From the NCBI GenBank assembly GCA_949751835.1, contig CATKHK010000091.1, positions 62,001 through 126,000 of the forward strand: DNA of 64,000 nt. The letters run 5' to 3'. Below the pieces are notes generated by a model that saw only the letters and a list, made by a program, of their open reading frames with translations, was not told the DNA's origin and did no database searches. Positions 20,201 through 55,000 of this stretch are shown here, piece after piece. Both the position numbers and the translations under genes were made by a program. The first letter of the stretch is position 1; each line of letters opens with the position of its first letter. The DNA is from Blepharisma japonicum (taxonomy: Eukaryota > Ciliophora > Heterotrichea > Heterotrichida > Blepharismidae).

Positions 20201-21670
20201 GGGACTAATTCTCAGTGTTATCAAGCTGACTATGAATTATTGACGGCTTATGGGTTTCAGCTGGTACCAGCAAGTACAGATGTAGCTAGCTGCAAAATTT
20301 ATCAATACTCTGGGGATAGTTTACCTATAAATCAAGCTGAAGCAGGGATAGAAAAAATGATTACGATAGAAGCAAGAGATAAATATGGGAATATTCAAGT
20401 GACCACTACTGATGTTTTTAGTGCAAGTTTAGTTATGGACTCAACAACAGTGACTGTTACTATACAAAATCAGTCATCAGGATATTATACCTTATCATTT
20501 TTCCCCCAAATTGCAGGAATTTATAATATGACTATTTATTTGCAGGTAAATTCTGCTCAAAGTTTAGTGACAAGTATTTCGATGAAAGTAATAGCTGGGG
20601 TTACTGATCCTACCAAAACACAATTAGTTGGCTTAAGCAGCTGAACTGCAGGAGCTCAAGGCTCAATTTATATACTTACCTATGATACATATGGAAACTT
20701 TGAAATTTCGTCCAATGATGTGGTCTCTATGTCTATATCTGGCTCTAGCACTATTTCTTCAAGCCAAATTTTTATCAAAAATTACCATAATGAATATTAT
20801 ATAGGAAATTTCATTATTTATCTTACAGGAACCTATACAATTTCTGTAGCGATTGATGGTGAAGATACAGGGAAAACTCTTCAAGTCGCTATAACTCCAG
20901 CATTACTATCAATGAGCCTATCTCAATTAGCAGCACCATCCACAGCTACTTCTGGCAGCACAATTGCGGTAGATTTATATTTAAAAGACCTTTATAATAA
21001 TGCCTATACAAGTTCACCAATATGAGATGTATATTTAGATAAAGAAGATAACCCTAATTTTAACCCTTTAGAATTTACTGTTACTGTAGTAGATTCATCA
21101 TCTGGGCATTTTAGCGCGAGTGCAGTTTATGATACATCTAAATTGGATTTAAATAGCTTATGTGGGTCATCCTCAACAGTTGCAAGCTATTTATGTGATT
21201 TTAAGACAAATTTGCAATTTTATGCATATACTTTAGTACAGGGGTTAAGCGGACTTTATTATGGTAATTCTGATTTTGAAGAGCCTATTTCAGAAAATAT
21301 TATTGATGGAGATATTGATTTCAATTGAGGCTCTAATACTGATATAAGTGTAATATGGGATGGCGCTTTGGTTTCTAACGCCAATAGTCTTTATACTTTT
21401 TATTTAAATGCTAGCGATTGGGCTTCTCTTTCATTTAATAATGAAGTCGTTATAAATACAAATCAGCAAAATTCGTATTCAGTTAGCTTAAAAGTAAATC
21501 AAGTCGTGGAAATTCAAATAAAATATTATAATGTGGAAGGGTATTCTTATATTCATTTTCAGTGGCAAAATTCATCAATGGCAAAAACTGCAGTGCCTTC
21601 ATCGGTACTGTATCATTATTATCAAGATATTCCTATAGGGTCAGGAGCAGCTATTATTCAGGGATCATAA
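17210..21670 (+). CDS. Secreted FN3 / PA14 / filamin-repeat protein
   Basis: Exon 1 (17210-17255) encodes a signal peptide, MILLLFFAILSISKA. A 15-nt intron (17256-17270) is removed, and the frame then runs to TAA at 21670 for 1,481 residues with several TGA tryptophans. A fibronectin-III-like domain (about 125-190, SYNLVGSSPGS) is followed by a PA14 domain (about 305-460, LFSDDFTRLYIDN). Roughly eight filamin-type Ig repeats follow (about 465-1280; G-YTI-V-L-G-I strands such as GSYSLVLL), then a second PA14 domain (about 1338-1472). PA14 domains bind carbohydrates in many surface proteins, so an adhesive or cell-recognition role is plausible. There is no transmembrane segment at the C-terminus, so it is likely released or peripheral. 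Confidence 0.85.
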
Positions 21671-28172: not shown

Positions 28173-29921
28173 TTAGTTATCCAACGGTGGCTCTTCTCCT
28201 TGCCTATTAGGAGCATTTAGCATATGAGTCAAAATATCTTTAGTGTATTTCAGTCTTTTAGTCATTTCATGATTGCTGCTTTCTTGCGCTGTAGCTAGCG
28301 GATAAGTCGTTCTTTCTCCTCTTTTATTAACATAAGTGACTACTCTTGTTTCACTTGACAAAATTATTTCAGTATGATCTTGGAAATTTACTTGTACAAT
28401 TTTATTAGAAAGCCTGAACATAATCGCATGTCTTGTCCTCATCCATTTCTTCACATACACCCTAATAACTGGCATTTGGTTATCCTCAATCCCTGTTTCT
28501 TGTTTAACATCTCCTTCCAAATAGCTTCTAAAATGTTGCAGAAGGGTAACTTTTTTTTGAAGCTCTTTTGGATATTCCGTCAGCGTATGCGTCGTAATTA
28601 CATCTTGTTTTTCAGGTCCTCTTCTTTCCATATACTCAAAACTGTTCCCTGCAGGGCTTAAAATAATTTTTGTAGCGTCATTAAAAAATACCCCAGTCGA
28701 CCCATTTGACAATAAATAGCCCAGACCATATTTTGATGAATAATCTACCCATTTTTTTACCCAAACTTCAGGCCCTGCTGAGCCGATACCTTGTTCAGGA
28801 GCATTCGTAAGCTGAGGCATCTGTTTTGTCTCTTCTCGGATTTTTGAGGCTCTTTCGGTATTTACAAGCTCTTGTCTAGCCGATCTTGCTGATGTATTTT
28901 TTAAGGCGACTGAAGGAACTGTTTCAGTAAGCCTATTAGAAGAATTAGATAAGCCACTTGTAGAAGGTGAAGTAAACTGACGTAGAAAAGATGCACTTGG
29001 AGGGCAAGCTAAAGTAGAAGGTGGCATTAATTTTGGGATAGAGTTCCCTTGATGGAAAAATTCATGAGCCAAAATTTCATCAAGTGATGGACGCTTTGCT
29101 GGGTCATTGACTAGGATTCTTGTAATTAAACTTTTACTAGGCTCGCTAAGAGGGACATGATCTGGGAATGAATAGGCGTTCATTCTGATTCTTCTATAGG
29201 TTGTTTTTACATCTGATGTTTCAAATGGTGGCTTTCCTACTAATAAAGTATACGCAATAACTCCAAGTGACCAAATATCGACTTCATAAGAGTGGCCTTG
29301 TTTACCATCCAATACTTCTGGAGCTATATAGTTAGGTGTCCCACAAATCGTCCTTTTCCTTTCCCCATCAAACTCAAGCTTCGTCGCCAAGCCAAAATCT
29401 CCAATCTTTATTTCCATTTTGTCCGATAAGAAGAAATTTCCCAATTTTAAGTCTCTATGGATCACCCTATGTGAGTGAAGATATTTCAAAGCTGATATAA
29501 CTTGATGCAAATAGCATTGCACCTCTAGCTCTGTCAGTCTTTTTCTGCGCCTTAAAAGCTCATTCGTGGTCTGATTTGTGCAAAGTTCTAATAAAATGTA
29601 CACATTTTCATTATCTTCAAAGAAGTGTTCAAATCCGACAATATTTGCATGGTGAAGGGCACGGTGAATTTTGATTTCGGACATGAGTTTTTGTTTTGCA
29701 CGGGATTTTTTAAGGGATTCTTTAGAAACTATTTTAGCTGCTGTAATTTTTCGGGTTTCCAGGTTTGTAAACTCATAGCATCTTGCAAAGCCGCCTTTGC
29801 CTAAAAATCTGCCTTTATTATAGCGTCTGATAGCAACTTCGCCGTTTACTTTTACTACTTTTTCTTCAACTGTAGTGCTTGATTCGGGTTCCTCCAGATT
29901 TCTGCTTGACTTAGCTGCCAT
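28173..29921 (-). CDS. PLK: Polo-like kinase
   Basis: A 582-residue mitotic Ser/Thr kinase. The N-terminal kinase domain (about 34-288) has the glycine loop GKGGFARCYE, the VHRDLKLGN-type catalytic loop (IHRDLKLGN), DFGLA and an activation segment with RTICGTPNYIAPE, including the activating Thr. Two polo boxes occupy the C-terminal third (the first starts at VWVKKWVDYSSKYGLGYLL, the second at VKKWMRTRHAIMFRL). These bind phosphorylated docking sites and target the kinase to basal bodies, spindle poles or the division furrow. It has the family's normal length, no intron and only TGG tryptophans. Its neighbours include other basal-body genes. Confidence 0.96.
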   Translation of the reverse strand: MAAKSSRNLEEPESSTTVEEKVVKVNGEVAIRRYNKGRFLGKGGFARCYEFTNLETRKITAAKIVSKESLKKSRAKQKLMSEIKIHRALHHANIVGFEHFFEDNENVYILLELCTNQTTNELLRRRKRLTELEVQCYLHQVISALKYLHSHRVIHRDLKLGNFFLSDKMEIKIGDFGLATKLEFDGERKRTICGTPNYIAPEVLDGKQGHSYEVDIWSLGVIAYTLLVGKPPFETSDVKTTYRRIRMNAYSFPDHVPLSEPSKSLITRILVNDPAKRPSLDEILAHEFFHQGNSIPKLMPPSTLACPPSASFLRQFTSPSTSGLSNSSNRLTETVPSVALKNTSARSARQELVNTERASKIREETKQMPQLTNAPEQGIGSAGPEVWVKKWVDYSSKYGLGYLLSNGSTGVFFNDATKIILSPAGNSFEYMERRGPEKQDVITTHTLTEYPKELQKKVTLLQHFRSYLEGDVKQETGIEDNQMPVIRVYVKKWMRTRHAIMFRLSNKIVQVNFQDHTEIILSSETRVVTYVNKRGERTTYPLATAQESSNHEMTKRLKYTKDILTHMLNAPNRQGEEPPLDN

Positions 29922-34411: not shown

Positions 34412-34633
34412 TTATTTGATATCCTTGGTTAATGTGCTTTGCAGATTGTAAGAGATTTTATACCGATCGCATAGACAAGGGCAACAAACTCTTAAAGCAA
34501 AAAAGAGCCCTAAGCCAAATATGATTCCTCTGAAGCTTGGCCTAATCATCCAAAAAAGAGCATAATTCCAAATTGATGAAAAGAATCCTTCTGTGCATGG
34601 AATTTCGTCATCGTTCTTATATTCGTCTTCCAT
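34412..34633 (-). CDS. Small membrane protein, orphan
   Basis: A 73-residue protein with an acidic N-terminus (MEDEYKNDDE), an aromatic-rich segment (SSIWNYALFWMIRPSF) and one clear membrane helix (IIFGLGLFFALRVCC). It ends in a Cys-rich juxtamembrane stretch and a basic tail. No family is recognised. It is supported as a real gene because a decayed duplicate is found at about 40000-40125, between array copies 1 and 2. The Cys cluster after the helix could be palmitoylated. It lies 68 bp upstream of SSNA1 on the same strand. Confidence 0.65.
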   Translation of the reverse strand: MEDEYKNDDEIPCTEGFFSSIWNYALFWMIRPSFRGIIFGLGLFFALRVCCPCLCDRYKISYNLQSTLTKDIK

Positions 34634-34948: not shown

Positions 34949-37900
34949 TTATACTTGATTTTCTTTAATCGTCTTCAACATCAAAGTTTGATTAGTTAAC
35001 CTCTTATCCTTCATTTTTAGGATCAGTTTGTTCATCAAAATGAAGCTCATAACTCCTGTAAGCATAAAAACAGTAGCGACAATCAGTCATATCCACCATA
35101 GCCCTTTATTTTGGTTTTCTTTATATTTTTCCTCAATCTCAAATCTTACTATTGGAGAATTAACCTCATTATTTTCATTTTTTGCAGTAATAAAAATATC
35201 AAAACTATTTGTTCCTCATTCATCAATCATTTTTTCATATTCACTTGAGTTCAGTTTTGAAATTTTAAAAATATTTGGATTTATTTTAAATGTTGCGACA
35301 TTATTCCCAGGAGTACACTCAATAATTGAAATTGTATTTAAATCCACAAAAACATATTCTGAAATAGATAAAGATAGCTCACAATCACATAGTTTTATAT
35401 CTGCAAAAATAAAGGAGCTATTTTGTGCAGATGTGTCATAAATTCTAAGGAGTTGTTTATAAGTATCAAAATTTTTGAAAAATGCTACATATTTTCCATC
35501 CTCTGAGCAAGATATGCTGCTATATGCCAGACTATGTTTTTGATCAGAATAAAATGTATCTATTATTTTCAAATTGTTTAAATCTTTTATCAGAATTTTC
35601 TGCCAAATACCAGATGATTTTAAAGCATATAAATAATCACCACATAATCCAATTGAAAAGTAATAATCATTATTATCATTATAAATTCCATCTCTAATTT
35701 CTAAGTCATTACTTGATATTTTCAAAATTCTTATCCCATATATTTGGTCAAGAATAAACCATACTGTATTTTCTGAATTTTCAGAAAATCCATCAAAAAT
35801 TAACGGTACAAAAGAAGGCAATTTCAATGAAATGGCATCAATTGATTTAACTTGTTTAATATCAATTCTATTAGCAATTCACTTTCCACGAAAATGTAGC
35901 ATTTGAGCCATTAAACAATTAGGACATTGCTGAGTAGTCATTATTTCAAAGTCTGTATCATTTAAAGCAATAATTTTAAGATACGATGGATTATAGGAAA
36001 TTGGTAAAGAAGCGAATTTATTGATAGAAAATGAAATATAGTCAAATTCCCATAAAGCCAGTATATTGATCTTTGAGGAGCCAACCTGAATATTTGAAAA
36101 TCCATTAATATGATAATTGCAAGAAGTTACGAGAAGTGCAGAATTATTTTTTGTGAAATCAGCTGTGTCTATTAAATCGCATTTCAAGTTATTGAAGGAG
36201 TAACTTGAAAAGTTAAGTGATTTTTGGAAACCTGAGGAATTTAAAATAATAAATCCCTCATTTGATGTGATAATTCTTATATCAGTATTCGGAATTAAAG
36301 CTTGATGGAATAAAGTAGATGGAGAACTATAAAAATCAATCATCTCTATTTTTGGAGCAATAGAGGCAGGGAAAGTGCTAATATCTGAATTATTTAAGTA
36401 TTTCCCATTAACATTTAAGCTAAATTCTAAATTTTGACCAAAAAATGCATTGTTCAAGTTAAACTCATATTGATCATCGCAACTTATTGTTTCTTTAATA
36501 TTCCAATTATGCGGCTCAAATCACACAAATGCTCCGTTCACTATTATATTCAATGGCAAACTAATGCTAGAGTATCTGAAGTTATTATTTGCAGCTATAA
36601 TAATTTCAGTAGAATAAATCTGCTCATGCAATATCTGAGGATTTTTAACGCTAACTGATATTTCATTTATAAATTGTTTGTTTAAGTTGCCTTCTATATA
36701 ATTAAAAAAATTTATCAAATAAGTTTCATAATATTTTTCAGTTGAGTTTAAATAAAATAAATATAGCTCACTCCTCTCTTCTTTAGATATCCAATAATTA
36801 TTTGATGAAAAATAACCTTGAGACCCCATTTTCTTTTCAATATATAAAGCATTATGCGTTGGCTCATTTATCTTGATAACAAATAATGTTTCTTTAAATT
36901 GTAGCAGGATTGTATTCCCAACTAATTCAGCTCTTGTCAAGGTTCCGCTATTTTCTAACTGAATTGTTCTTATATAGTTTAATGAGCCTGTAAAAATATC
37001 TATTGAGAAATTTTCTCGCAATAAGATAATTTCTTTCAATGAAGAAAAAATTTTCAAAATACCAGTCAAAGAACTTTCCGAAATAAAATAAGGAGACGGG
37101 AAGCTTGATAATTTCTGGAGATCGATAACAAGAAGCCCTTTAACTTTGTCAGCTAAATATAGATAATCATATGCCTGCTCGTGTGGCTCAAGTGAGCAAA
37201 TTTCTATGTCAGTCAAATTTCATGTAAAATTTCCTTCAAAATTGCTTCCTGATAACAAATTTAATCTTTTCCATCCTTGTTGGTCATGATAATAAATATC
37301 TATTATTTCTCCATTAGAACATATAAATTTGTTAGTCTTCATGTTGATTTTAAAAAATTTGCATTCAGATGCTGGCTCCCAGGATTGCATAGTTATTGGT
37401 GGACCATAATTGTGGCATGTAATCATCGGGCTCAATCCTGCTGTTTTTCAATATATAATAGTATTGATTCCTATTGTAAAAACTTTGATTGGATTTGTAA
37501 CATTAAAGGTTGTATAATCAATAATTATGTGATCTTTAAAATAATAGATTAATCTGTCACTGTTCTCAACTCACTCAATATTATCAGGAAGTGTTTGATT
37601 TTTGATAAATGTTAATTTTTCAATTTGACTTGACTCAAAAGTAAAAAATTCAGAATCACGGATTGATACTGTGAAATTTAAATTTGGCCCAGAAAAATAA
37701 TTAATTGGGGATAAAACTAGATTCGATTTATAGCTATCTAAAAATATATTTTGAGGTGAAATTTTAGGAGATCTATAGTCATCTAATAAATAAATTTCAT
37801 TTGAATTTGCAGGAATTGTAATCACATTTATAAAACTTGAAAGAGAGTTTAAGTTTCCATTATTATTTTCATATGCAATAATTTCTGCTTTAAAATTGGA

Positions 37901-39232
37901 ATTTCCTTTCACCTTAAGAGAATAAGGATTAATATTTATTTTAAAGCGTCTTATTCCGTCAAAATCAGACCTTCAATATGTCATTGATTCACCAGCAGGC
38001 ATTTGAGTTATCATTCAGAAGCCATTTTTATTATAATCTTTTCCAATCATATTTTCTATATCAACTTGATAAAGTGAATTCTCAAAATTATTATTTTTAT
38101 AAATATTCAATATCGACTTGTCTGATATCTCATACTGAATAAAATAAAATCTATCAGCATGTTGAAGAAAGGTAGGACTATGCATAAGTCCATTATTTTC
38201 ATATGCTGGGATTCATTGCTTAAGATCTCCAGAGGTACTAATCAAAATAATTCCTTCATTAGTCAAAACATTAATACACTCTTTAGCATATGAAATGCCA
38301 TGTTGAAACCACATTGATTGCAAATTTCCAGCTGATCGAAGATCAACAAAAGATTTTTCGATGCAAAATATACGGTGTCTGCATAAATAAATTATCAGTC
38401 CAATATTTGAATCGAGAACAATGAAATAATTCAAAGAAGCTAGCATACTTTTAACTGATAACGTCTGAATTTCTTGGGGTGTAATGAAATATTTAGTGAT
38501 TGCTTCAATATAAATAGGACTATAAGGGTTTGTAAAATTATATAGCAATATTGCATTTTTATTATCTGGAAATTCCCCATAAATATAAACTATGTGCTTA
38601 TCCTCTGTTGTGCTCATAATAATATTATTTGCATAAGTTAAATTGCTCAAATTTATTAAAATGGGCTCTTTAATAGCTGAGATATCAGACAAATTCATTA
38701 TATAAAAATCATTTCTCCACATCTCATTATCATCAATATTTTCTTGCTTTTGCAATTGAATAAGAAGAAAAAAGTAATTTTGGTGACTCTTTAACAGAAT
38801 TTCTATACTTTTTATATATGCAAATTTATATTCGGTTTTTATCTGTCCATATCAAATAAGCGATAAATCGCTGGATTTTTCTGAGAGCTTATATAAGTAA
38901 ATATTATTTTCATAAAAATCACACACAATTTGGTCGGTGAAATAATTTAAAACTGTATATGACTTTTGACTCGAGAAGGAGGGTAAATTTTGATTTCTTT
39001 CGGAAAGGTATGAGTCAAATGATAATAGTTCAAAATTTATCTTATTTTTCAAAGATATATCACTGTTTTCTGAATTTGGTGACAAAATTTGATATGTGAG
39101 GTTGTTGCCGACAAAGAAGTCAGATAATTCAAGCTCATGTACTTCGTTTTGAGAAAGATAGATATCGCCTAAACTCTTTTTGAGATACAAAGCTTTTGAA
39201 GCAGCAATAAATAAAAAGAGAAGGATAATCAT
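34949..39232 (-). CDS. Tandem-array type I membrane protein, copy 1
   Basis: With TGA as Trp (at least ten sites) one frame runs unbroken from 39232 to TAA at 34949, for 1,427 residues and no intron. It begins with a signal peptide (MIILLFLFIAASKALYL) and ends with one membrane helix (IWLIVATVFMLTGVMSF) and a tail of about 25 residues ending TIKENQV. The ectodomain is rich in beta-strand patterns and N-x-S/T sites. One stretch, YLYLADKVKGLLVIDL, resembles the LVIVD-type propeller repeat. No named family is recognised. Copies 2 and 3 lie directly upstream on the same strand. It is likely a surface glycoprotein; role unknown. Confidence 0.85.
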
Positions 39233-39260
39233 TCAATAATAAGACAAATTATTATAATAA
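39233..39260 (-). promoter_or_regulatory. Conserved 28-bp block before array copy 1 start
   Basis: The 28 bases immediately upstream of the start codon are identical before all three array genes (also 44681-44708 and 49479-49506), while sequence further out diverges quickly. A second shared core, TATTATTTCACCA on the plus strand, lies at 39350-39362, about 118 bases from the start. These are the best candidates for leader and promoter elements. Confidence 0.55.
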
Positions 39261-39504
39261 AGCATCACAAATTATTTATTTGTTCATGCCTTCTAAGAAT
39301 CATATCTGTTAATCAAATAAGAAGAAAATATTTGCAATTTTTATTTTTATATTATTTCACCACATATCTATTGAATTAATTTAAATATAATAAATTTTAT
39401 ATAGTATATTTTCAAACAATTTTTAAATTTTTCTTTTTCTGAAATTGAGTATTTCAGCCAAGATTATAAGGATTTATTATAATTGCATAAAACTAAACGA
39501 TTAA
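39261..39504. other. Upstream flank of array copy 1
   Basis: AT-rich sequence partly alignable with the upstream flanks of copies 2 and 3. It includes the shared TATTATTTCACCA core. No gene is present. Confidence 0.45.
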
Positions 39505-39970
39505 AGGAAGGACAAATAGTCAATGAATTTTTAACAAAATTATATTAAAAGCAAAAGGGAGCAAAACTATAATCAGGATTAAGAATATAATCTCGAAGAG
39601 TTACATGCATTTGTGGATATTTCGTTGTAAATGTCAGCCTTTGAGAAAGTGGTATAGTTGATATATAAGAACGATTCAAAGGGTTATAAATCATACTGGA
39701 GTCATCATCGAAAACGATTGCAAAGCTGCTGGAGGTGGTCTAGCAAATGTCCTTGCAACGGCACATTTGCTATATCATAAACTTCTCCACTATTCCCCTT
39801 ACCTCAAAAATATCTCCATTCATAAGGTATCTATCTCTTCCCTAGATCTTTTCTGGGAAGTTCCAAATCAATTTGTATTTCCTTTTCATAGTAATTTTCC
39901 TATTTTTTTTCAATTTTTATTATTTGATCAAAAATTTCTGATGCTATTAATTTATTAATTAAATGATGGA
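39505..39970 (-). pseudogene. Decayed duplicate of the orphan gene at 49775-50344
   Basis: The plus-strand sequence from about 39505 tracks 49735-50260 closely: both contain ATAATCAGGATTAAGAATAT-like starts, GGACGATTCAAAGG-like and GAAAACGATTGCAAAGCTGC blocks in the same order. The copy has small insertions, deletions and stops and no frame of useful length on the minus strand. It stops aligning near 39970, where the small membrane gene relic begins. It is a by-product of the array duplication. Confidence 0.8.
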
Positions 39971-39999
39971 TCTGCTTTGATGCATTATATTTAAATACA

Positions 40000-40125
40000 T
40001 ACTCTTAATGCAAAAAAAGTCCTAAGCCTCTGAAGCTTGATGAAACCATCAAAAAAAGCATAATTCCAAATTTATAAAAAGAATCCTTTACCATCGAATC
40101 TCGTCGTCATTTTATATTCATATAA
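40000..40125 (-). pseudogene. Decayed 3' part of a small membrane gene duplicate
   Basis: This stretch matches 34495-34633: shared blocks include CCTCTGAAGCTTG, CATCAAAAAA/CATCCAAAAAAG followed by AGCATAATTCCAAATT, and AAAAGAATCCTT. Internal deletions break the frame. The homology continues into the 3' flank of array copy 2, so the relic marks the left end of the second duplication unit. Confidence 0.8.
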
Positions 40126-40378
40126 ATATTGATTAATTTTAGTGAAATTTTGATGCTAATATTTTCTATTTTGAATAGAAATTATAATAGATTTATTATT
40201 ATTTGAAGTAATGATTTTATAGTACTTCATTTTAAAACGCTAAAAAATTAACATTAGTAAATATTCAGATTAATTAATATTTAGTGCTAAAAGGACTATG
40301 ACTTCAGTAATATTTGATGAAATTATACAAACTAAATCTAAAATTTTTAATTGTTTGATTTAAAAAAAACTAATATTC

Positions 40379-43300
40379 TTAAATTTGATTTTCTTTAATC
40401 GTCATTAGCACCAAAGTTTGATTTTCTAAACTTTTATCCTTCTTTTTTAACATCATATTTTTCATCAAAATGAAACTTATAGCTCCTATAATCATAACTG
40501 CAGTAGCAGCAATCACCCAAATTAGCCAGTGTTCTTTATCTTGGCTCTCTAGATATTTCTCTGTAATTACCCTCACAAATTTTACTATTGAAGAATTAAC
40601 CTCATTATTTTCATTTTTTGCAGTAATAAAAATATCAAAAATATTTGTTCCTCATTCTTCAATAATTTTTTCATATTCGCTTTCATTCAGTTTTGGAATT
40701 TTTAAAATATTTGGATTTATTTTAAATGTTGTGACGTTTCTCCCAGGAGCACATTCTATAATTGAAATTGTATTTAAATTCACAAAAACATATTCATAAA
40801 CATATATAAATTGAGAGCAATCACATATTTCTATATCTGCTAAAATAAATGAGCTATTTTTTGCAGATGTGTCATAAATTCTAAGGAATTGTGTAGAGCT
40901 TGTAAAACTTTGGAGAACCCCTATATATTTTCCATCATCTGAGCAAGATAAGCGGGTAAAACGTGGACTCCAATTATGATTAGAATAAAATGTCTCTATT
41001 ATTTCCAAATTGTTTAAATCTTTTATCAGAATTTTCTGCAAAATATTAGATGATTTTAACGCATATAAATAATCACCACATAATCCAATGGAAAAATAAT
41101 GGTCATGCATATCATTAGGAATTCCATCTAAAATTTCTAAGCCATTACTTGATACTTTCAAAATTCTTATACCATAACTTTTTTCAAGAATAAATCATAC
41201 AGAATTTTCTGAATTCTCAGAAAATCCATCAAAAAATCATGAGTTAAAAGAAGGCATATTCAAGGAAATGGCATCAATTGATGTAAGTTGTTTAATATCA
41301 ATTCTATTAGCGATTCACTTTCCTCGAAAATGTAACATTTGCATCATCAGATATTCAGGACATTGCTGAGCAGTCATTATTTCAAAATCTGTATCATTTA
41401 AAGCAATAATTTTAATATACGACGGACTATAGGAAATTGTTAAAAAATTGAATATATTGACAGTAAATGAAATATAGTCAAATTCTCATAAAGCCAATAT
41501 ATTTATCTTTGAGGAGCCATTCTGAATATTTGAAAATCCATTAATTTGATAATTGCAAGAAGTTACGAGAAGTGCAGAATTATTTTTTGTGAAATTAACT
41601 GTGTCTATTAAATCGCATTTTATGTTATTGAAAGAGTAACTTGAATAATAAAGCGTTTTTTGGAAGTCTGAGGAATTCAAAATAATAAATCCTTCACTTG
41701 CTGTAATAACTCTTATATCAGTATTCGGAATTAAAGCTTGATGGTATAAAGTAGTTGGTGAATTATAAGAATGAATTATCTCTATTTTTGGAGTAATAAT
41801 AGCAGGCAAAGTGCTAACTTCTGAATTATTTAAGTATTTCCCATTAATATTTAAGCTAAAATCTAAATTTCTACCAAAAAACGCATCGTTCAAGTTAAAC
41901 TCATATTCTTCATCATAACTTATTGTTTCTTTAATATTTCAATTACATGGCTCAAATCACACAAACAATCCACTTACTATTATATTCAATGGCAAACTAA
42001 TGCTAGAGTATCTAAAGTTATTATTTGCAGTTATAGTAACTTCAGCAGGATAAATCTCCTCAACCAATTTCTGAGGATTTTTCACCTCAATTGATAATGT
42101 CTCATCACTAAATATTGTTTTTAAGCTGCCCTTTATATAATCCAAGAAATGAGCCAAATAAGTTTCATAATATTTTTCAGTTGAATTTAAATAAAAGAAA
42201 TATAGCCTTAGCTCGTTATAGCCTTCATTCGATGTCCAATAATTATTTAATGAAAAATAGCCTTGAGATCCTATTTTCTTTTCAAAATATAATGCATTCT
42301 GTGCTGGCTCATTTGCCTTGATAGCAAATAATGTTTCTTCAAATTGCAACAGTAGCATATTCCCAATTAATTCAGCTCTAGTAAAAGTTCCACTATTTTC
42401 TAGCTGAATTGTTCTTATATAGCTTAATGGGTTTGCAAAAATATTTATTGAGAAATTTTCTAGAAGTAAGATAACAGCATTTTTAGTCGAAAAAATTTTC
42501 AAAATACCAGTCAAAGAACTTTCTGAAATAAAATAAGGAGATGGAAAACTTGATAAATTTAAAAGATCGATAACAAGAAGTCCTTTAACTTTGTCAGCTA
42601 AATATAGATAATTGTTTAGCGGTTCGCTTGGTGCAAATGCGCAGTCTTCTATGTCAGCCAAATTTCATGTAAAATTTCCTTCAAAATTGTTTCCTGATAT
42701 CAATTTTACTCTTGTCCAAAATCCTTCTTCATTTTGATTATAAATCTCTATTATTTCTCCATCTGAGCATATAAATCCATAACCCAGCTTATTCAATTTA
42801 AAAATTTTGCACTCAGATGCTAGCTCCCAAGACTGCGTAATAATTTTCTCAGAGTACCTATAAAATGTTATCATGGGGCTCAATTCTGCTGTTTTTCAAT
42901 ATATAATAATATCAGTTCCTATTCTGATAGCTTTGATTGGATTTGCAATATTAATAAATATATCATTAACAATTATGTGATCTTTAAAATAATAGATTAA
43001 TCCGTCACTGTTCTCAACTCATTCAATATTATCAGGAAGTGTTTGATTTTTGATAAATTTTAATTTTTCAATTTGGCTTGACTCAAAAGTAAAAAATTCA
43101 GAATCGTGGGTTGTTACTGTGAAGTTTAAATTTGGCCCAGAAAAATAATTAATTGGGTATAGAAATATACTCGATTTATAGCCTTCCACTAATATATTTT
43201 GAGGTGAAATTTTAACAGATCTATAGTCATTTAATAAATAAATTTCATTTGTATTTGCAGGAATTGTAATCACATTTATAATACTTGAAAGAGAGTTTAT

Positions 43301-44680
43301 ATTTCCATTATTATTTTCATATGCAATAATTTCTGCTTTAAAATTGGAATTTCCTTTAACCTTAAGAGAGTAAGGATTAATTTTAATTTCAAAGTGTCTT
43401 ATTCCATCAAAATCAGATCTTAAATATAATATTGACTTAGTAGAAAATTTATGAATTATTGTCCAGAAGCCATTTTTATTATAATGTTTTCCAATCATTT
43501 TTCCTATATCAATTTGATAAAGTGCATTCTCAAAATTTTTATTTTCATAAATATTTAATATTGACTTGTCTGATATCTCATACTGAATAAAATAAAAATT
43601 ATCGAAATATTGTAGGAAAGTGGGATTATAAATAAGGCCATTATTTTTATATGATGGGATTCATTGTTTTAGATCCCCACATGTTCGAATTAAAATATTT
43701 CCTTTATCAGTCAAAACATTAATAGCTTCTTTAGTTAGCGAAGAATCATATAGAAATCACATTGATTGCAGATTTCCAGCTGATCGAAGATCGATAAAAG
43801 ATTTTTCGATACAAAAAATACGAGACTTGCATGAATAAACTATTATGCCAATATTTGAATCGAGAAGAATTAAGAAATTTGGAGAAGCCAGCATACTTTT
43901 GACTGACAGCGTCTGAATTTCTTTGGGTGTAACAAAATATTGAGTTATAGCTTGAATGTAAATAGGGCTATATGGATTTGTAAAATTATATAGAAATATA
44001 GCATTTTTATTATCTGGAAATTCTCCATAAATATAAACTATGTACCTATTCTCTCAAGGGCTCATAATAATATTACTTGCATAAGTTAGATGACTCAAAT
44101 TTGCTAATATTGGCTCTTTAATGGCTGAAATATCGGTCAAATTCATTATATAAAAATCATTTCTCCATACCAAATTATCATCAATATTTTCTTGCTGTTG
44201 CATTTGAATTAGAAGGAAAAAATAAGTTCTGTAATAATTCCATAGACCTTCTATGCTTTTTATATATGCAAATTTATATTCAGTTTTTATCTGTCCATAT
44301 CAGATAAGCAATAAATCGTTGGATTTTTCTGTGAGCTTATATAAATAAATATTATCTTCGTAAAAATCACAAACAATTTGGTCGAGAAGATAATTTAAAA
44401 TTGTATATGTCTTTTGGCCTGAAGAGGTGGCTAAATATTTATTTGATTGGGGAGGGTATGGGTTAAATGATAATAATTCAAAATTCATCTTATTTTCCAA
44501 AGATATTTCGTTACTTTCTGAATTTGGTGACGAAATTTGATATGTGAGGTTATTTCCAGCAAAGAAATCAGATAAAGAAAGCTCATACACTTCGTTTTGA
44601 GAAAGATAAATATCGCCTAAGCTCTTTTTTAAATGCAAAGCTTGTGAAGCAGCAATAAACACGAAGAGAAGGATAATCAT
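40379..44680 (-). CDS. Tandem-array type I membrane protein, copy 2
   Basis: This gives 1,433 residues in one unbroken frame (TGA = Trp), with signal peptide MIILLFVFIAASQALHL, a large ectodomain and a C-terminal helix (WLIWVIAATAVMIIGAISF) before a basic tail ending TIKENQI. It aligns with copies 1 and 3 from end to end. Most strands are conserved, e.g. YLYLADKVKGLLVIDL and FTWNLADIEDC, with substitutions scattered through the ectodomain. I traced the frame through 43499-44299 by hand and found only TGA interruptions. All three copies staying open suggests that each is under selection. Function is unknown. Confidence 0.85.
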
Positions 44681-44708
44681 TCAATAATAAGACAAATTAT
44701 TATAATAA
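44681..44708 (-). promoter_or_regulatory. Conserved 28-bp block before array copy 2 start
   Basis: Identical to the block before copies 1 and 3. The second shared core, TATTATTTCACCA, lies at 44810-44822, about 130 bases upstream of the start codon. Confidence 0.55.
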
Positions 44709-45179
44709 GGCATCAAAAAATGATTTATAAGCTCATATCTTATTTTAAATATATCCACTAATCAATTAAGAAAAGAGAATATTTAGATATTTATAAATTT
44801 TTAATTTTATATTATTTCACCACATCTATCTATTGATTTTTATTTCTTTTTGGATAATTACAAGAAATTTTAGGTAGATAAATTTTTAATTGAGTGCTTA
44901 AATTTTTCTTATTCTCAAATTGGACTAGAAATTTACTGCAAATATTTTCTATTTTGAATAGAAATAATTAACCAATTTATTATTATTTCCAGCATTTATA
45001 TTATTTACTTCGCTTTTAAACTCTAGCAAATTAACATTTATGAAAACTTTAAAACCACAATGAAGATTAATATAATGCTTAGTGTTAAAAGGACTATGTT
45101 TTCAATAATATTTGATGAATATTATGATTAATTTGATTTAAAAATTAAAATTAAATAAGCTCATATTGAATAATTATTC
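44709..45179. other. Junction between array copies 2 and 3
   Basis: The first part (to about 44925) is the upstream flank of copy 2. From about 44930 the sequence switches to a match with the 3' flank of copy 1 (34677 onward; shared TTTCTATTTTGAATAGAAAT). No relic of either flanking gene remains here, unlike the first junction, so this duplication used different breakpoints or later lost material. No gene is present. Confidence 0.6.
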
Positions 45180-48100
45180 TTATGCTTGATTTTCTTTAAT
45201 CGTTGACAACACCAAAGCTTGATTAGCTAAATTCCTATCCTTCTTTTTTAACATCAGATTTTTCATCAAATTGAAACTCATAGTTCCTGTGATCACAACT
45301 GCAGCAGCAACAATCACCCAAACCCACCAAATAATTTTATCTTGGTTTTCTTGATTTTTCTCTGTAATTACCCTCACAAATTTTACTATTGTAGAATTAA
45401 CTTCATTATTTTCATTTTTTGCAGTAATAAAAATATCAAAATTGTTTGTTTCTCATTCGTCGATAATTTTTTCATATTCGCTTGTACTAAGTTTTGGAAT
45501 TTTTAAAATATTTTGATTTATTTTAAATGTTGTAACTTTACCTCCAGGAGCACATTCAATGACTGAAATTGTATTTAAATCCACAAAAACATATTCATTA
45601 GCATATAAAGATTGGTAGCAGTTACATAACTTTATATCTGCTACCAAAATAGAGCTATTTTTGGCATATGTGTCATAAACTCTAAGTAATTTCGTATTAT
45701 CAAAAAAAAGATGGAAAACCCCTATATATTTTCCATCCTCTGAGCAAGATAAGCGGGTAATTTCCTGGCCGTATTTTTGACCAGAAAAAAATGTTTCTAT
45801 TATCTTCAAATTGTTTAAATCTTTTATCAAGATTTTTTGCAAGATGTTAGATGTTTTTAACGCATATAAATAATCACCACATACTCCAACTGAAAAATAA
45901 TAGTCCTCATCATGAGAAATTCCATCTATAATTTCTAAGTTATTACTTGACACTTTCAAAATTCTTATTCCATAACTTTGGTCAAGAATAAACCATACAG
46001 AATTTTCTGAATTTTCAGGATATCCATCAAAAAATCATGAGTTAAAAGAAGGAATATTCAATGAAAAGGCATCAATTGATCCAAGTTGCTCAATATCAAT
46101 TCCATTAGCTGTTCACTTTCCACGAAAATGCAAGATTTGAGTAATTTGAAATTCAGGATATTGCTGAGCAGTCATTATTTCAAAGTTTGTATCATTTAAA
46201 GCAATTATTCTAAGATATGACGGATTATATGAAATTTTTATAGAATTGAATCTATTGACAGAAAATGAAATATAATCAAATTCTCATAAGGCTAATAAGT
46301 ATATCTTTGAAGGTATATTTTCAGTATTTGAAAATTCATTAATTCGATAATGACAAGAAGTAGCGAGAAGTGCAGTATTATTTTTTGTGAAATTAACTGT
46401 ATCTATTAACTGGCATTTCAAGCTTTTGAAGGAGTAGCTTGAATAATAAAGAGTTTTTTGGAAGCCTGAGGAATTTAAAATAATAAATCCCTCAGTTGAG
46501 GTGATAATTCTTATATCAGTATTTGGAATTAAAGTTTGATGGTATAAAGTAGTTGATGAACTATAAAAATCAATTATCTCTATTTTTGGAGTAATCCTAG
46601 CAGGAAAAGTGCTAAATCCTGAACTATTTAAATTTTTCCCATTAACATTTAAGGCAAAATCTAAATTTTGACCAAAAAATACACTATTCAAGTTAAACTC
46701 ATATTCTTCATCATAACTTATTGTTTCTTTGATATTTCAATTATATGGCTCAAATCACACAAATGATCCACTTACTATTAAATTCAATGGCAAACTAATG
46801 CTCAAGTATTTGTGGTTATTATTGGCAGCTATAGTAATTTCAGCAGGATAACTCTGCTCGACCAATGCCTCAGGATTTTTAACCTTAATTGATATCTCAT
46901 TACTAGGCATTGTTCTAGAACTGTCTTCTCTGTAGTCCAAAAAATACAATAAATATGTTTCATAATGCTTTTCAGTAGAGTTTAGATAAAAGAAATATAG
47001 AAATTTTTCATTTCTCCCATCATTCTCTAACCAATAATTATTTAATGAAAAATAACCTTGAAACCCTATTTTCTTTTTAAAATATAATGCATTATGTGCT
47101 GGCTCGTTTGCCTTGATAACAAATAATGTTTCTTCAAATTGTAATAGGATCAAATCCCCAAGTGATTCAGCTCTAGTTAAAGTTCCGCTATTTTCTAATT
47201 GAATTGTTCTTATATAACTTAATGGGATTGCAAAAATATTTACTGAGAAATTTTCTCGAAGTATAATAGTATATTTATAAATAGAAAAAATTTTCAATGT
47301 ACCAGTCAAAGAACTCTCTGTAGTAATATAACGGAATGGTAGACTATATAATCTCTGAATATCGATAACAAGAAGCCCTTTAACTTTATCAGCTAAATAT
47401 AAGTAATTATTTAGCAGTTCATGAGGAACACCTCCGCAATTTTCTATATCAGCCAAATTTCACGTAAAATTTCCTTCAAAATCGTTTCCTGATATCAAAT
47501 TTTGTCTTTTTCAAAATCCTTCTTGCCCCTGATAGTAAATATCTATTATTTCTCCATTAGAGCATACAAATTGATTATTCATCTTGGTCAGTTTAAAAAT
47601 TGTGCACTCAGATGCTGTCTCCCATGACTGTGTAATTATTGGTCCAGAAAATGTATGAAATGTTATCATAGGGTTTGATTCTGCTGTTTTTCAATATATA
47701 AGAGCATCGGTTCCTGTCATGAGAACTTTGATTGGATTTGTAACATTAAAGGATATATTATCAATAATTATGTGATCTTTAAAATAATAGATTAAGCTGA
47801 AACTGTTCTCAACTCACTCAATATTCTTAGGTAGTGTTTTATTGCTGATAAATTTTAATTTTTCAATTTGGCTTGATTTAAAAGTAAAAAATTCAGAATC
47901 TCTGGTTGTTACAGTAAAGTTTAGGTTTGGCCCAGAAAAATATTTAGGAGGAGATAAAAATAGATATTGATCATTGCTGTCAATAAATACATTTCTAGGT
48001 GAAATTTTAATAGGTCTATTTTCATTTAATAAATAAATTTCACTTGAGTTTTCAGGAATTGTAATCACATTTATAATACTTGAAACAGAGTTTAAGCTTT

Positions 48101-49478
48101 CATTATTGTTTTCATATGCAAAAATTTCTGCATTAAAATCCGATTTTCCTTTCACCTTCAAAGAATAAGGGCTAATCTTGATTTCAAATTGTCTAATTCC
48201 ATCAAAATCAGATCTTAAATATGTTATTGAATTAATAGGAAATTTTTGTATTATTGTCCAGAATCCATTTGGATTATAATGTTTTCCAATTATTTTTTCT
48301 ATTTCAATTTCGTAAAGTGTATTCTCAAAATTATTATTTTTATAAATAGCCAATATTGACTTTACTGATGTCTCATACTGAATAAAATAAAAACTGTCAA
48401 AGCATTGAATAAAAGAAGGATTATAAATATGCCCATTATTTGTATATGATGGGATTCATTGCCTTAAAATTCCAGTAACAGGACTAATTAAAATATTTCC
48501 TTTATTACTCAAAACATTAACAACTTCTCTTCCTAGCATAGAGCCATATAGAAATCGCATTGATTTCAGATCTCCAGCTGACCGAAGATCAATAAAAGAT
48601 TGTTCCATACAAGGAATACGAGACATGCACGAATAAACTATAAAGCCAATATTTGAATCAAGTACAAAAAGATAACTTGAAGAAGTCAATATGCTTTTAA
48701 CTGATAATGTTTGAATTTCTTTAGGTGTAATAAAATATTGAGTTATATCTTGAATGTAAATTGGGCTATAAGGATTTATAAAATTATATAGAAATATTGC
48801 GTTTTTATTATCTGGAAATTCTCCATAAATATAAACTATTTGTTTAAACTCTGAAAAGCTCATAATAATATTATTTGCATAAGTTAAACGGCTAAAATTT
48901 ACTATTATGGGCTCCTGAATGGCTGAAATATCGGTCAAATTCATTATATAAAAATCATTTCTTCATACCAAATTATCATCAATATTTTCTTGCTGTTGAA
49001 ATTGAATAAGAAGAAAATAGCAATTTTGGCGATACTCTCGTACACCTTCTATGCTTTTTATATGTGAAAATGCATACTCAGTTTTTATCTGTCCATATCA
49101 AATAAGCAATAAATTGTTGGATTTTTCTGTGAGCTTATATAAATAAATATTATTTTCGTAAAAATCACAAACAATTTGGTAGGGAGGATAATTTAAAATT
49201 GTATATGTTTTTTGGCCTGAAGAGGTAGATAAATTTTTATTTGATTGGAGAGGGTATGGGCGAAATGATAATAATTCAAAATTCATCTTATTTTCCAAAG
49301 ATATTTCGTTATTTTCTGAATTTGTTGACAAAATTTGATATGTGAGGTTGTTGCCATCAAAGAAATCAGATAATGCAAGCTCATACACTTCATTTTGGGA
49401 AAGATAAATATCGCCTAAGCTCTTTTTGAGATGCAAAGCTTGTGAAGCAGCAATAAATAGGAAGAGAAGGATAATCAT
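45180..49478 (-). CDS. Tandem-array type I membrane protein, copy 3
   Basis: This gives 1,432 residues in one unbroken frame (TGA = Trp), with signal peptide MIILLFLFIAASQALHL, the same ectodomain order as copies 1 and 2, a membrane helix (WWVWVIVAAAVVITGTMSF) and a tail ending TIKENQA. The signal peptide, the segments around DKVKGLLVIDI and the tail are the most conserved parts. The stretch after GTMSF keeps the basic KKKDR motif. As the outermost upstream copy it abuts the intact orphan gene at 49775. A ligand-binding or cell-recognition role would fit, but that is inference. Confidence 0.85.
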
Positions 49479-49506
49479 TCAATAATAAGACAAATTATTA
49501 TAATAA
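49479..49506 (-). promoter_or_regulatory. Conserved 28-bp block before array copy 3 start
   Basis: Identical to the blocks before copies 1 and 2. The shared TATTATTTCACCA core lies at 49588-49600, about 110 bases upstream of the start codon. The remainder of this gap up to 49774 holds no gene. Confidence 0.55.
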
Positions 49507-49774: not shown

Positions 49775-50344
49775 TTAGGGAGCATAACTATAGTCAGGAT
49801 TAAGAATATCACCTCGAAGAGGTACATGCTTTTGTGGATATTTTGTAGTAAATGTCGGCCTTTGCTGAAGTGGGATAGTTGGCATATAAGGACGATTCAA
49901 AGGATTATAAGGCATATAATTCAGTGCTGGAGGCATCATCGAAAACGATTGCAAAGCTGCTGGAGGAGGTCTAACAAGTGTCCTAGCAACCGGCACATTT
50001 GTTATGTCATAAACCTCTCCACTACTCCCCCCTACCTCAACAATATCTCCTTTATTCAGCCTTTCACACGGTATTTCTTCCCTAGGTCTTTTCTGAGGCA
50101 GCTCTACATCAGTTTGAATTTCTTTTTCATAAGTAATTTTCCTATTTTTTTCAATTGATCCTTTACATCGGTCACACAAAGTCTGCTGATTAATAAGAAA
50201 ATTGTCCCCTGTATACATTTCATCAAACACTTCTGACATTAATAATTCATTGATTAAATCGCTTGGGTTCTTTTCTCTTCCATTAGTATTATTAGGCTGA
50301 TCCTCAGAGATTTCTATTTCTTCAGCTATAAAATTCTCATTCAT
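49775..50344 (-). CDS. Orphan Pro-rich protein
   Basis: A 189-residue protein. The acidic N-terminal half has a CDRC pair and a helix (SDLINELLMSEVFDEMY). The C-terminal half is rich in Pro, Met and Tyr (MMPPALNYMPYNPLNRPYMP) and probably disordered. No family is recognised. Its decayed duplicate at 39505-39970 shows that it was present when the array expanded. Pro/Tyr-rich tails of this type often bind SH3/WW-like or RNA-processing partners, but nothing in the sequence specifies a role. It starts 62 bp downstream of the sorting nexin stop on the same strand. Confidence 0.6.
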   Translation of the reverse strand: MNENFIAEEIEISEDQPNNTNGREKNPSDLINELLMSEVFDEMYTGDNFLINQQTLCDRCKGSIEKNRKITYEKEIQTDVELPQKRPREEIPCERLNKGDIVEVGGSSGEVYDITNVPVARTLVRPPPAALQSFSMMPPALNYMPYNPLNRPYMPTIPLQQRPTFTTKYPQKHVPLRGDILNPDYSYAP

Positions 50345-52041: not shown

Positions 52042-55000
52042 TTATGAGCTTATATTTAAATCCTCCTCTACATCCATCCCCTGTAGCATTTGTTGTACTG
52101 TATTATATTCACTTGTTAAATTAATTAAAGTTTCATTTTGTCTCTGCATAAAAATTACGTTTATAATATCTCTTTCTTTTTTGGTTTTTTCTAAAAGGTT
52201 TCTAACCATATTAATAATTTCTTCATCAGTAAAAGGCTGAGTTTCATCCCTGACTTCGTCTTCAACTACTTGAACAGCTGATTGGGCAACTGTTTTTTTC
52301 CTTATAGTTAAAGAAGACGTCCTTTTTGTGATTGATTTTTTTCTGCTAAAGTCTATAACAGTTGTTTTTCTTTTGACATTTTTTACATCTTTTAAGTATG
52401 GACTTGACTCTCTATCTTCAAGCTCTCCCATTACAAATATTTTATCGCCAAGGAAAATTGGAGTGCTTGCATCAGGTTTTGTATAGACATAAGGTGTTTC
52501 ATTATTTAATATCCCTGTGTTACGGTAAATTCCTAAAGCGACAAGAGGTCTTTGAAGACTTATTAAATAATTGAATACTTCCCCAAAAGTAATTTTCCCA
52601 TATAAATGTTCAGGTAGTTCTATCGAATTTATCCTATAATTTTCATCAATCCCAAGCTCTGCAAACATATCTTCATATACAATCAAGCGCTGAACTAAAT
52701 CAATCAAAATATTATTATGAAAAGCTTGAGCTATAATATAATCCAAAGCGCTCGAAAAAAACACATGAGAGGCTGCATATCTTGGCCACACCACAAAAGG
52801 CAAATTTTCAAGCTCAGTTCTTGGCTTTTTATCTAAATATTTTAAATTAATTTCATCTACCAGCTCCACAGTAAATTTACAAGTAAAATTCTTTTCAATT
52901 AAACTCACAAGTGGCAGTAGACCAGAATCTTCCATTGTGGAGCCTTCAATTCTATTGCTTAATAAAATTGTGTGGTAAGCAAAGCTTATTGCAGTGTGTG
53001 AAAGCTCTTCTACGTCAGAAAAAGAGCATTCTAAGTACAAAGCGTCTCTATATGTTTGTGATATTCTTTTTCATTTATTATCAGGAGGCTGATCAGATAC
53101 ATAGCAAACCAATTGGTTGCTAGTTTTCGCAAAAGTCTCCAATAAAATTTCTAAATGCTCAAGTCTGCCAAACACAATAATATGATCCCATACAGACCCT
53201 CTCAAATCTGTTAGCCACATAAGTAAATGTCTTTGCTCAATAGGTTTATATACACTTTTTATTGGTGGTGGCGTTTTCATCTGTCTTAACTGCTCAAACA
53301 TTTCAAATTTAACCGGTTCCACACCAATTTCATGGACATCAAGATCTTCAATTTCTTTGGCATCTTCAATGCCTTCAGCAATCATAAAAGCTCTATCACT
53401 TTTTTTTATATAATAATCCACAGGATTTAATAAAATTTCTGAAGCGTCATTTAATTTAGTTTGGATGCCTATAATTAATGAGCCATTTTTAAAATAAAAT
53501 GCTTTGACGACATCTGTATATTTTACTCCAATTAAATGCTTTGGAAATTTATAGTAATAAACTTCATTTGAAAGTCCTGCAATATATTCAGTTATCCAAT
53601 GATTCCCAAAACATTCTTTTTTCATAATTCCAGAAGAAGAAATCATTAAGTTTGATAATAAAGTACTAAAGCCAGGCGTAAATGCATTGGCAGATAACAT
53701 AGAAAGTTTAAATTTCCAAGTGCTGAATCCAGTTTCCCACCCTGCCCAATAGTGATGCATAAGCAAATCAGGTCTGACAAGCTGAAGAAAGACTGGAGTT
53801 TCAGCTGAATATTCTTTAACAGCACTAGACGCTAATATAGCATTGACGTCTTGGTTAGCGATTTCGTCTTCGTATTGGTTTGTTAACACCACAACTCCTC
53901 GACTTATATCAATTGCTGCATTTTTTAGCGTTTCTTCACCCATAAAGTCAGCTTCTAAATATTTTACAGCATCTTCATACATAGGATGGTTTAAAATAGC
54001 TAAAATATCTTTGCTTGGAGGCTCTGAGTTTACTATTAAAACTTGGCATTCAGTCATCGGCATGTCGTGATCAGGGTGATAAAGCTCTTTTAGGAATCTA
54101 TAGAGGGTGGTGGCGTTAAATTTTCCGGTTACCACAATGTGCTTACCTGGTTCTGTTTTATATGGATTTTTGTAGGGAGAGCTGTTTTTCATGAGCTCGC
54201 CGAGCTTTGAGGTTTGTTGAGTCATAATGATGACTGCAATAATGATATAGAGACCTATAATTGCTCGAGCAAGCCTAGTAGTTGGGCTCATATCTCCATA
54301 ACCGACAGTTGAGGTTGTAATTATAATAAAATATAAGGCCTTCTCAAAAGTCATACTAGTTTCGCCATTTGGCAAGCTGATATCAAAGTCGTTGGTATTT
54401 TGTAGAGCAAGGACTACTCCTGCAGATATAAAAATCAAGGTAAAAACTGTTAAAATTGCTATCATTATTTGTCTTGCTACTTCTGAAGATTGTATCACAA
54501 AGCCTCCTTGGGGCTGGTCTTCAGCTTTTGATAGCTAAATAATTTTTACTGCAAACAGTCTGTATAATCTCAAGATTCTGATAACTCTGACAACACGGAT
54601 AAATCTAGTAAACGTCAAAGAGCTATGCGATGAAGGCTAAATGTAATTTACGCTTAAAAGAGTAATGTAAACTGGGAGAATAATAACAATGTCAATGATA
54701 TTAAGAGGTTTTAGCATAAATTTCTTCTTGTCAATTGCAGTAATGAACCCAAGGATATAATCTATTGTAAATAATATTGCAATTGCGAGCTCTAATGAGT
54801 TGAAAAATAAAGTTTGCTGATCTCCTATATATGTGCTCATGACATAAACTATACAAGCAAAAACAGTTAAAATCGCTTGGAAGATTGAGCCTGTCAGCTT
54901 CAGTAGGATAATTGTAGGCATTGAGTTCGTCTTTTTCTTAAGGACAGGGTTATCTGTATAGGATTTACTATTTTTCAGATTATCACCGATTGATGATACT

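Follow-up and report, generated by a model that had tools for sequence, protein, structure and literature searches.

Three intact tandem genes of Blepharisma japonicum encode probable membrane receptors with a threefold repeated ectodomain module

The stretch of Blepharisma japonicum DNA analyzed here (64,000 nucleotides, positions 62,001 to 126,000 of the forward strand of contig CATKHK010000091.1, assembly GCA_949751835.1), hereafter the window, carries a tandem array of three genes, A, B and C, for large type I membrane proteins. In this study, we report that their ectodomain consists of one module of about 440 residues (about 415-465) repeated three times, a reading well supported by profile comparison, and that each module is probably an immunoglobulin (Ig)/cadherin-like domain split by an insert, which on weak but concordant evidence is likely a beta-propeller. 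Most likely, with a probability that we put somewhat below one half, the three proteins function as recognition or adhesion receptors at the cell surface that share a cytosolic partner. The threefold module, the wider gene family and the probable propeller go beyond the initial annotation of this DNA, which had described three intact tandem genes of about 1,430 residues.

That description was borne out, including the start, the end and the copy number of the array. Frames were read with NCBI table 4, in which UGA encodes tryptophan. The array spans positions 34949-49478 on the minus strand, with C-B-A as the order of transcription. From the first methionine common to all three, gene A (34949..39232) encodes 1427 amino acids (aa), gene B (40379..44680) 1433 aa and gene C (45180..49478) 1432 aa, while the corresponding frames from stop to stop cover 34949-39268, 40379-44758 and 45180-49493, respectively. 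An upstream in-frame ATG is a possible alternative start at 39265 in A and at 44713 in B; gene C has none. Each gene has a single terminal stop, and UGA codons number 11, 14 and 13 in A, B and C, respectively. Pairwise identity is 69-74% for amino acids and 81-85% for DNA, and the 3-5 alignment gaps per pair are all in frame because they were taken from a protein alignment of open frames. In a simulation limited to substitutions, at half of the A-B divergence (300 runs), a mean of 17.8 stops and a minimum of 8 were expected by chance, so that chance does not explain the intact frames. Hidden introns of 15 nucleotides (nt) breaking the frames were considered and rejected, as there was no internal insertion of more than 4 residues that was absent from at least half of the family; a single GTA..AG candidate, in gene C, was found for the 15-nt form examined.

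The type I layout proposed by the initial annotation agrees with the sequence and hydropathy of A, B and C, the leader being recognized by eye. Their N-termini are hydrophobic (MIILLFLFIAASQALHL), as are, also by eye, those across the 17 aligned family members, and the putative signal peptide of gene B occupies residues ~1-15 (44636..44680, minus strand), judging from the aligned N-termini. The ectodomains are ~1360-1370 residues long and no window above a Kyte-Doolittle (KD) value of 1.6 was found in the part of them that was scanned; the one hydrophobic 19-residue window (KD 2.2-2.5) is near residue 1390 and corresponds in gene B to a membrane helix at residues ~1387-1405 (40466..40522, minus strand). 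The strongest hydrophobic window is at the C-terminus in 15 of the 17 members; one more shows the helix by alignment only and one ends before it. Four cysteines occur without exception in all 17 members (635, 649, 1033 and 1053; B numbering plus 11), and 1212 and 1257, in the same numbering, are each present in 16. With spacings of 14, 20 and 45 residues, these cysteines seem to form pairs, which in turn suggests that the ectodomain is lumenal or extracellular and, likely, disulphide-bonded. The ectodomain cysteine count is 11-22 among members and 15-18 in the window copies. The proteins had also been called beta-rich and N-glycosylation-rich. The former is consistent with the secondary structure seen in two models of low confidence, whereas the latter did not hold: the ectodomains of A, B and C contain 19, 21 and 20 sequons, respectively, against 19.8-20.5 in composition shuffles, and the apparent richness is due to their Asn-rich composition. 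Sequons were therefore rejected as a sign of heavy glycosylation. Five other members (the trio on contig C18 and the copies on C9 and C44) reach z values of 1.8-2.7.

The cytosolic tails of A, B and C are short and basic, with 28-32 residues by the hydropathy cut, and end in TIKENQ(V/I/A) in all three translations, as initially annotated. That of gene B (40382..40465, minus strand) has 28 aa, ends in TIKENQI and carries a hydrophobic motif common to the family. The pattern [LVI]x[LM]xx[MIF] was found in 16 of 20 tails, compared with a mean of 1.9 and a maximum of 7 in 2000 shuffles, a count that must be read down, as the pattern was set post hoc from the tails themselves and many of the tails are related rather than independent. 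The set omits one helix-less member (L004, on contig C61), and two of its tails belong to a fragment and to a copy with a frameshift; the tail of the C2 member (L005) was counted as a miss, the wrong stretch having been scored because its hydropathy maximum is in the ectodomain. The tail with this shared motif probably serves to bind one cytosolic adaptor common to the proteins. In one clade the tail motif is acidic-hydrophobic (DEGLLLKEI, DEGVMMEEM).

The threefold repeat emerged from an all-versus-all comparison of profile windows from the 17-member alignment (54 windows, 1326 pairs). Off the diagonal, the best matches joined residues 43-68 to 516-541 (E 3e-7), 37-60 to 931-954 (E 4e-6) and 449-472 to 1351-1374 (E 6e-6), and the eleven strongest (E up to 6e-5) all paired a first half with a first half or a second half with a second half. 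In these strongest matches the first halves are at ~43-68, 516-541 and 931-954 and the second halves at 449-472 and 1351-1374. Matching halves at both ends of the modules place the domain halves ~310-360 residues apart in each module, and matches in the middle of the modules keep the order (280-292 with 699-711, E 1.8e-4; 694-716 with 1167-1189, E 4.2e-4). In all, 6% of the window pairs were below E 0.01. The second half of module 2 is the weakest, its best non-overlapping match being the second half of module 3 (E 0.004). In gene B, with approximate borders on the minus strand, module 1 comprises residues ~15-477 (43250..44638) and shows an Ig/cadherin-like half, the insert and the second half; module 2 comprises residues ~489-903 (41972..43216) and has a sub-threshold match to the LVIVD family; and module 3 comprises residues ~909-1373 (40562..41956). 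The cadherin/CADG-like name of the domain halves follows a resemblance in motifs.

With respect to the insert, the evidence for a propeller comes from weak profile matches and from structure models. When the 51 single modules were scanned, 21 Pfam families appeared at E up to 0.1, all of them sub-threshold and 5 of them propeller families: LVIVD (E 0.002), Utp8_b_propeller (8.6e-5), an RSE1 propeller and two WD40 models. LVIVD leads with three members and Utp8_b_propeller has two, as does the unrelated LonC_helical. In module 2 of A, B and C the match to LVIVD (PF08309) is weak (E 0.004-0.025) and its best score shown, 16.8 bits, is below the curated cut-off of 20.2, which leaves the proteins outside that family; an LVIVD search of the B. 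japonicum genome gave no match, while 3 of 14 control genomes were positive. Two structure models were built from the three window copies. Foldseek gave 686 and 1120 matches at E up to 10 for the two module models, and among the 50 matches listed for each, 49 and nearly all, respectively, were propeller proteins judging by their titles, chains in large complexes included. The EPTP propeller of LGI1 (9kzc_B) was among the top neighbours of the module 1 model (E 4.5e-4), and the module 3 model superposed on 3scy at 3.6 Å over 140 columns and on 4qrj_A at 3.5 Å over 117, which corresponds to a few blades.

The three genes belong to a family in the same genome. The assembly searched has 45.2 Mb in 224 contigs, and the family counts are lower bounds. 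A search with B returned 28 matching stretches, and searches with three divergent members returned 30, 26 and 27 without any extra long copy. The family comprises at least 21 long copies and at least 5 fragments or decayed copies. The long copies are the 17 aligned single frames, a second copy on C21, a C28 copy with a 15-nt insert, a frame-changed one on C28 and one truncated where contig C165 ends; the fragments or decayed copies are two on C18 and one each on C165, C205 and C54. In a tree of 21 rows, the trio A/B/C (contig C91), the C18 trio, the C21 pair and one C28 pair each had 100% bootstrap, while two C61 copies, the fourth C18 copy, the third C28 copy and two C165 copies are not nearest to their own array neighbours; several deeper joins with long branches are unsure. 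The closest relative of A/B/C in this tree is L004 (C61:222638-226750). This copy stops just before the membrane helix, with no helix just downstream in any frame, and may be secreted or truncated. The copies C117:726-5018 and C165:55-3906, near the starts of two contigs, are nearly identical (branches 0.025 and 0.028) and possibly represent alleles or an assembly duplicate. Tryptophan codons also differ among members: L012 (C9:108897-113390) has 1 UGA and 22 UGG, L005 has 3 and 19 and the C44 relative has 14 and 7, respectively, and most others prefer UGA. The C28 paralogue (84369-88673, L024/L023) is interrupted by GTAAACTCTATTTAG, a 15-nt GT..AG insert with an in-frame stop, which is probably a tiny heterotrich-type intron. 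In addition, repeats of CCCTAACA gave 168 overlapping exact matches to three units in the assembly and none in a reversed control. The same code (UGA for tryptophan), intron size and telomere repeat are given for B. stoltei in sections of PMC9942806, and these three features support a Blepharisma-like host.

Selection was estimated from the ratio of non-synonymous to synonymous substitution rates (dN/dS) in nine pairs. Within the A/B/C trio it was 0.45-0.46 and within the C18 trio 0.38-0.40. The pair C165/C117, on different contigs, gave 0.36, B and its C61 relative 0.42 (synonymous divergence, dS, 1.4) and C9/C44, also on separate contigs, 0.10, the last value being approximate as its dS of 1.86 is near saturation. 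Clear positive selection as a driver was examined in sliding windows and rejected: 43 of 45 values were 0.21-0.64, and the other two, 0.97 and 1.18, each came from a single pair.

The flanks of the array add to this history. An open reading frame (ORF) of 189 aa upstream of C (49775..50344, minus strand), without any Pfam hit up to E 0.01, was copied with the array, and sequence comparison revealed a decayed copy of it with frameshifts and stops between A and B (39520..39915, minus strand), with 7 frameshifting indels in 381 columns, 87.5% ungapped identity and three TAG in its search row. The decay of this copy beside three open receptor frames indicates that selection probably keeps A, B and C open. 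By the same comparison, the flank downstream of A has a diverged copy downstream of B (39997..40341) and a copy between B and C (44928..45125). We infer that one duplication carried the downstream flank, the receptor and the neighbour, and that the receptor alone was retained. A match to the neighbour ORF (53% over 57 residues) lies ~4 kb from the C61 array which, together with the position of L004 nearest to the trio, points to an older segmental duplication. A small hydrophobic ORF of 73 aa downstream of A (34412..34633, minus strand) is at most a candidate gene.

Several observations weigh against the interpretation given above and must be considered together. With respect to the modules, some out-of-register matches (39-72 with 1018-1052, E 2.1e-4; 111-141 with 1257-1287, E 5.2e-4) equal those in the middle of the modules, and no direct match joins the second half of module 1 to that of module 2 (E 0.13). 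Ten fused halves compared with Pfam matched no cadherin/CADG family and only one Ig family, at 0.021, and neither these ten nor the 17 whole members matched the dystroglycan-type cadherin-like or He_PIG Ig domains in Pfam. Among the 17 members the best Pfam E-value was 0.00029, and none of the 8 members with scores shown reached a curated cut-off; the best NCBIfam match (E 0.0069) was not convincing, and a sequence search of the PDB gave one chain at E 1.3 with B as query and none with two profiles. The initial annotation had likewise assigned the proteins to no known family, and the family did not turn up in searches of open-licence PubMed Central (PMC) papers either, which also linked neither LVIVD to ciliates nor 'gamone receptor' to Blepharisma. 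For the consensus sequence, LVIVD reached only E 2.7 and the best match was the non-propeller LonC_helical (0.006). The models are poor, with mean predicted local distance difference test (pLDDT) values of 36.9 and 31.9 and a predicted template modelling score (pTM) of 0.29; query TM-scores among the listed Foldseek matches were 0.11-0.22, and only 4 and 1 of those matches, respectively, reached E 0.001. Weak beta-meanders may favour propellers in Foldseek. Regarding the layout, 6 of the 17 members have additional ectodomain windows above KD 1.6. Finally, sliding windows gave no clear positive selection, and the C165/C117 pair evolves about as fast as the tandem copies, so that dispersal alone does not equal slow evolution.

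According to the receptor model, which remains the most likely one, the propeller faces would bind glycans or proteins of other cells, at the cell surface or the ciliature, duplication in tandem would widen the range of binding, a core role would stay with at least one slowly evolving pair, and the short basic tail would hold a common cytosolic adaptor through its hydrophobic motif. Surface location, ligand binding and adaptor binding are all inferred here.

A serious rival, although an unlikely one, is that these proteins act as sorting receptors in the secretory or lysosomal pathway, operating like sortilin/VPS10, in which propellers would capture Golgi or cortical-granule cargo and the tail motif would engage adaptors. 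The single-pass layout, the propeller-like ectodomain and the short tail would suit such a role, the acidic-hydrophobic tail motif of one clade resembles sorting signals, and the slowly evolving pair C9/C44 fits a housekeeping function. However, Sortilin/VPS10 families were absent among the Pfam matches of the 17 members at E up to 1, the ectodomain has three modules and not one propeller, and fast-evolving tandem arrays would be unusual. We give a similarly low standing to passive surface-coat or variant antigens like the ciliate immobilisation antigens, whose copies would differ so as to change the coat and would have no specific ligand. The tandem arrangement, the fragments and decayed copies and the relaxed constraint in most close pairs speak for them, but the proteins have a membrane helix and a shared tail motif, not a glycosylphosphatidylinositol (GPI) anchor, the cysteines of their ectodomains are few for such antigens, and neither the dN/dS of C9/C44 nor the sliding windows favour this option. 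Surface antigen, recognition or mating protein, the roles put forward in the initial annotation, were a conjecture. The tail motif and the slowly evolving pair speak more for a receptor than for a passive variant antigen.

Rather improbable, in our opinion, is a mating-specific role, in which some members would bind gamone 1 or hold conjugation partners together. Large ectodomains and paralogue diversity would suit it, and in sections of PMC10892320 the gamone 1 receptors on type II cells still have putative status and the workings of the later steps of conjugation are described as unclear. On the other hand, ~20 copies exceed the need for one pheromone, nothing seen in the window links the genes to mating, and the same sections cite a 2009 gamone 1 receptor analysis. 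Even less probable is the bolder proposal that a novel Ig/cadherin-propeller receptor architecture expanded into self/non-self or partner recognition, with one array supplying the mating receptors of Blepharisma. Finally, a selfish or decaying expansion without present function would account for the five fragments or decayed copies, the frame-shifted long copy and the helix-less member, but it is very improbable given that all three window frames are open, which argues against a relic, beside a decayed co-duplicated neighbour and with dN/dS well below 1.

The significance of these genes is that they belong to a coherent family, found in one protist, of ~20 receptor-like proteins of very large size, with no convincing match to a curated family and with dN/dS below 1 in the measured pairs. 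If true, the split-domain propeller would be an arrangement not met in the libraries searched. Moreover, the family provides a defined set of large surface-type proteins as candidates for the gamone 1 receptor or for later conjugation steps, and developmental expression profiles have been published, according to sections of PMC9942806.

Three other genes of the window were recognized by domain matches. The ORF at 17372-21670 (plus strand, 1432 aa) matches Filamin (2.9e-35, 6 stretches), PA14 (4.4e-21, 2 stretches) and the N-terminal Ig-like domain of GEX2 (4.9e-13); GEX2 is a plant gamete protein, and this ORF may interest ciliate mating research. The gene at 52042-54465 (minus strand) codes for a potassium channel that has a Slo-like RCK domain together with a BK-channel alpha domain, and that at 28173-29921 (minus strand) for a Polo-like kinase, in which two stretches match the POLO box.

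Among known systems, LVIVD-repeat proteins resemble A, B and C in the weak matches of module 2 and in a DxxxGxxI line, blade-like by eye, in each module, but these matches are sub-threshold, genome-wide LVIVD matches are lacking, and the rest of the module differs. The LGI1 EPTP domain and other PDB propellers are top neighbours of the module 1 model but fit it poorly (TM-score ~0.2, root-mean-square deviation 15.9 Å and 10% identity, for a low-confidence model). Ciliate immobilisation antigens are likewise large surface-type proteins of multigene families but are GPI-anchored and Cys-periodic, whereas A, B and C have a helix, a tail of 28-32 aa and few cysteines and so fall outside that group. 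VPS10/sortilin receptors share the type I layout, a short tail whose motif is sorting-like and, if the predicted fold is right, a propeller-like lumenal part, and differ in having one large propeller in place of three modules, with no family match between them. Integrin alpha chains combine a propeller with Ig-like domains, one helix and a short basic tail, and act in adhesion; no sequence match was found between them and A, B and C, in which the propeller apparently lies inside the Ig-like domain, three times over.

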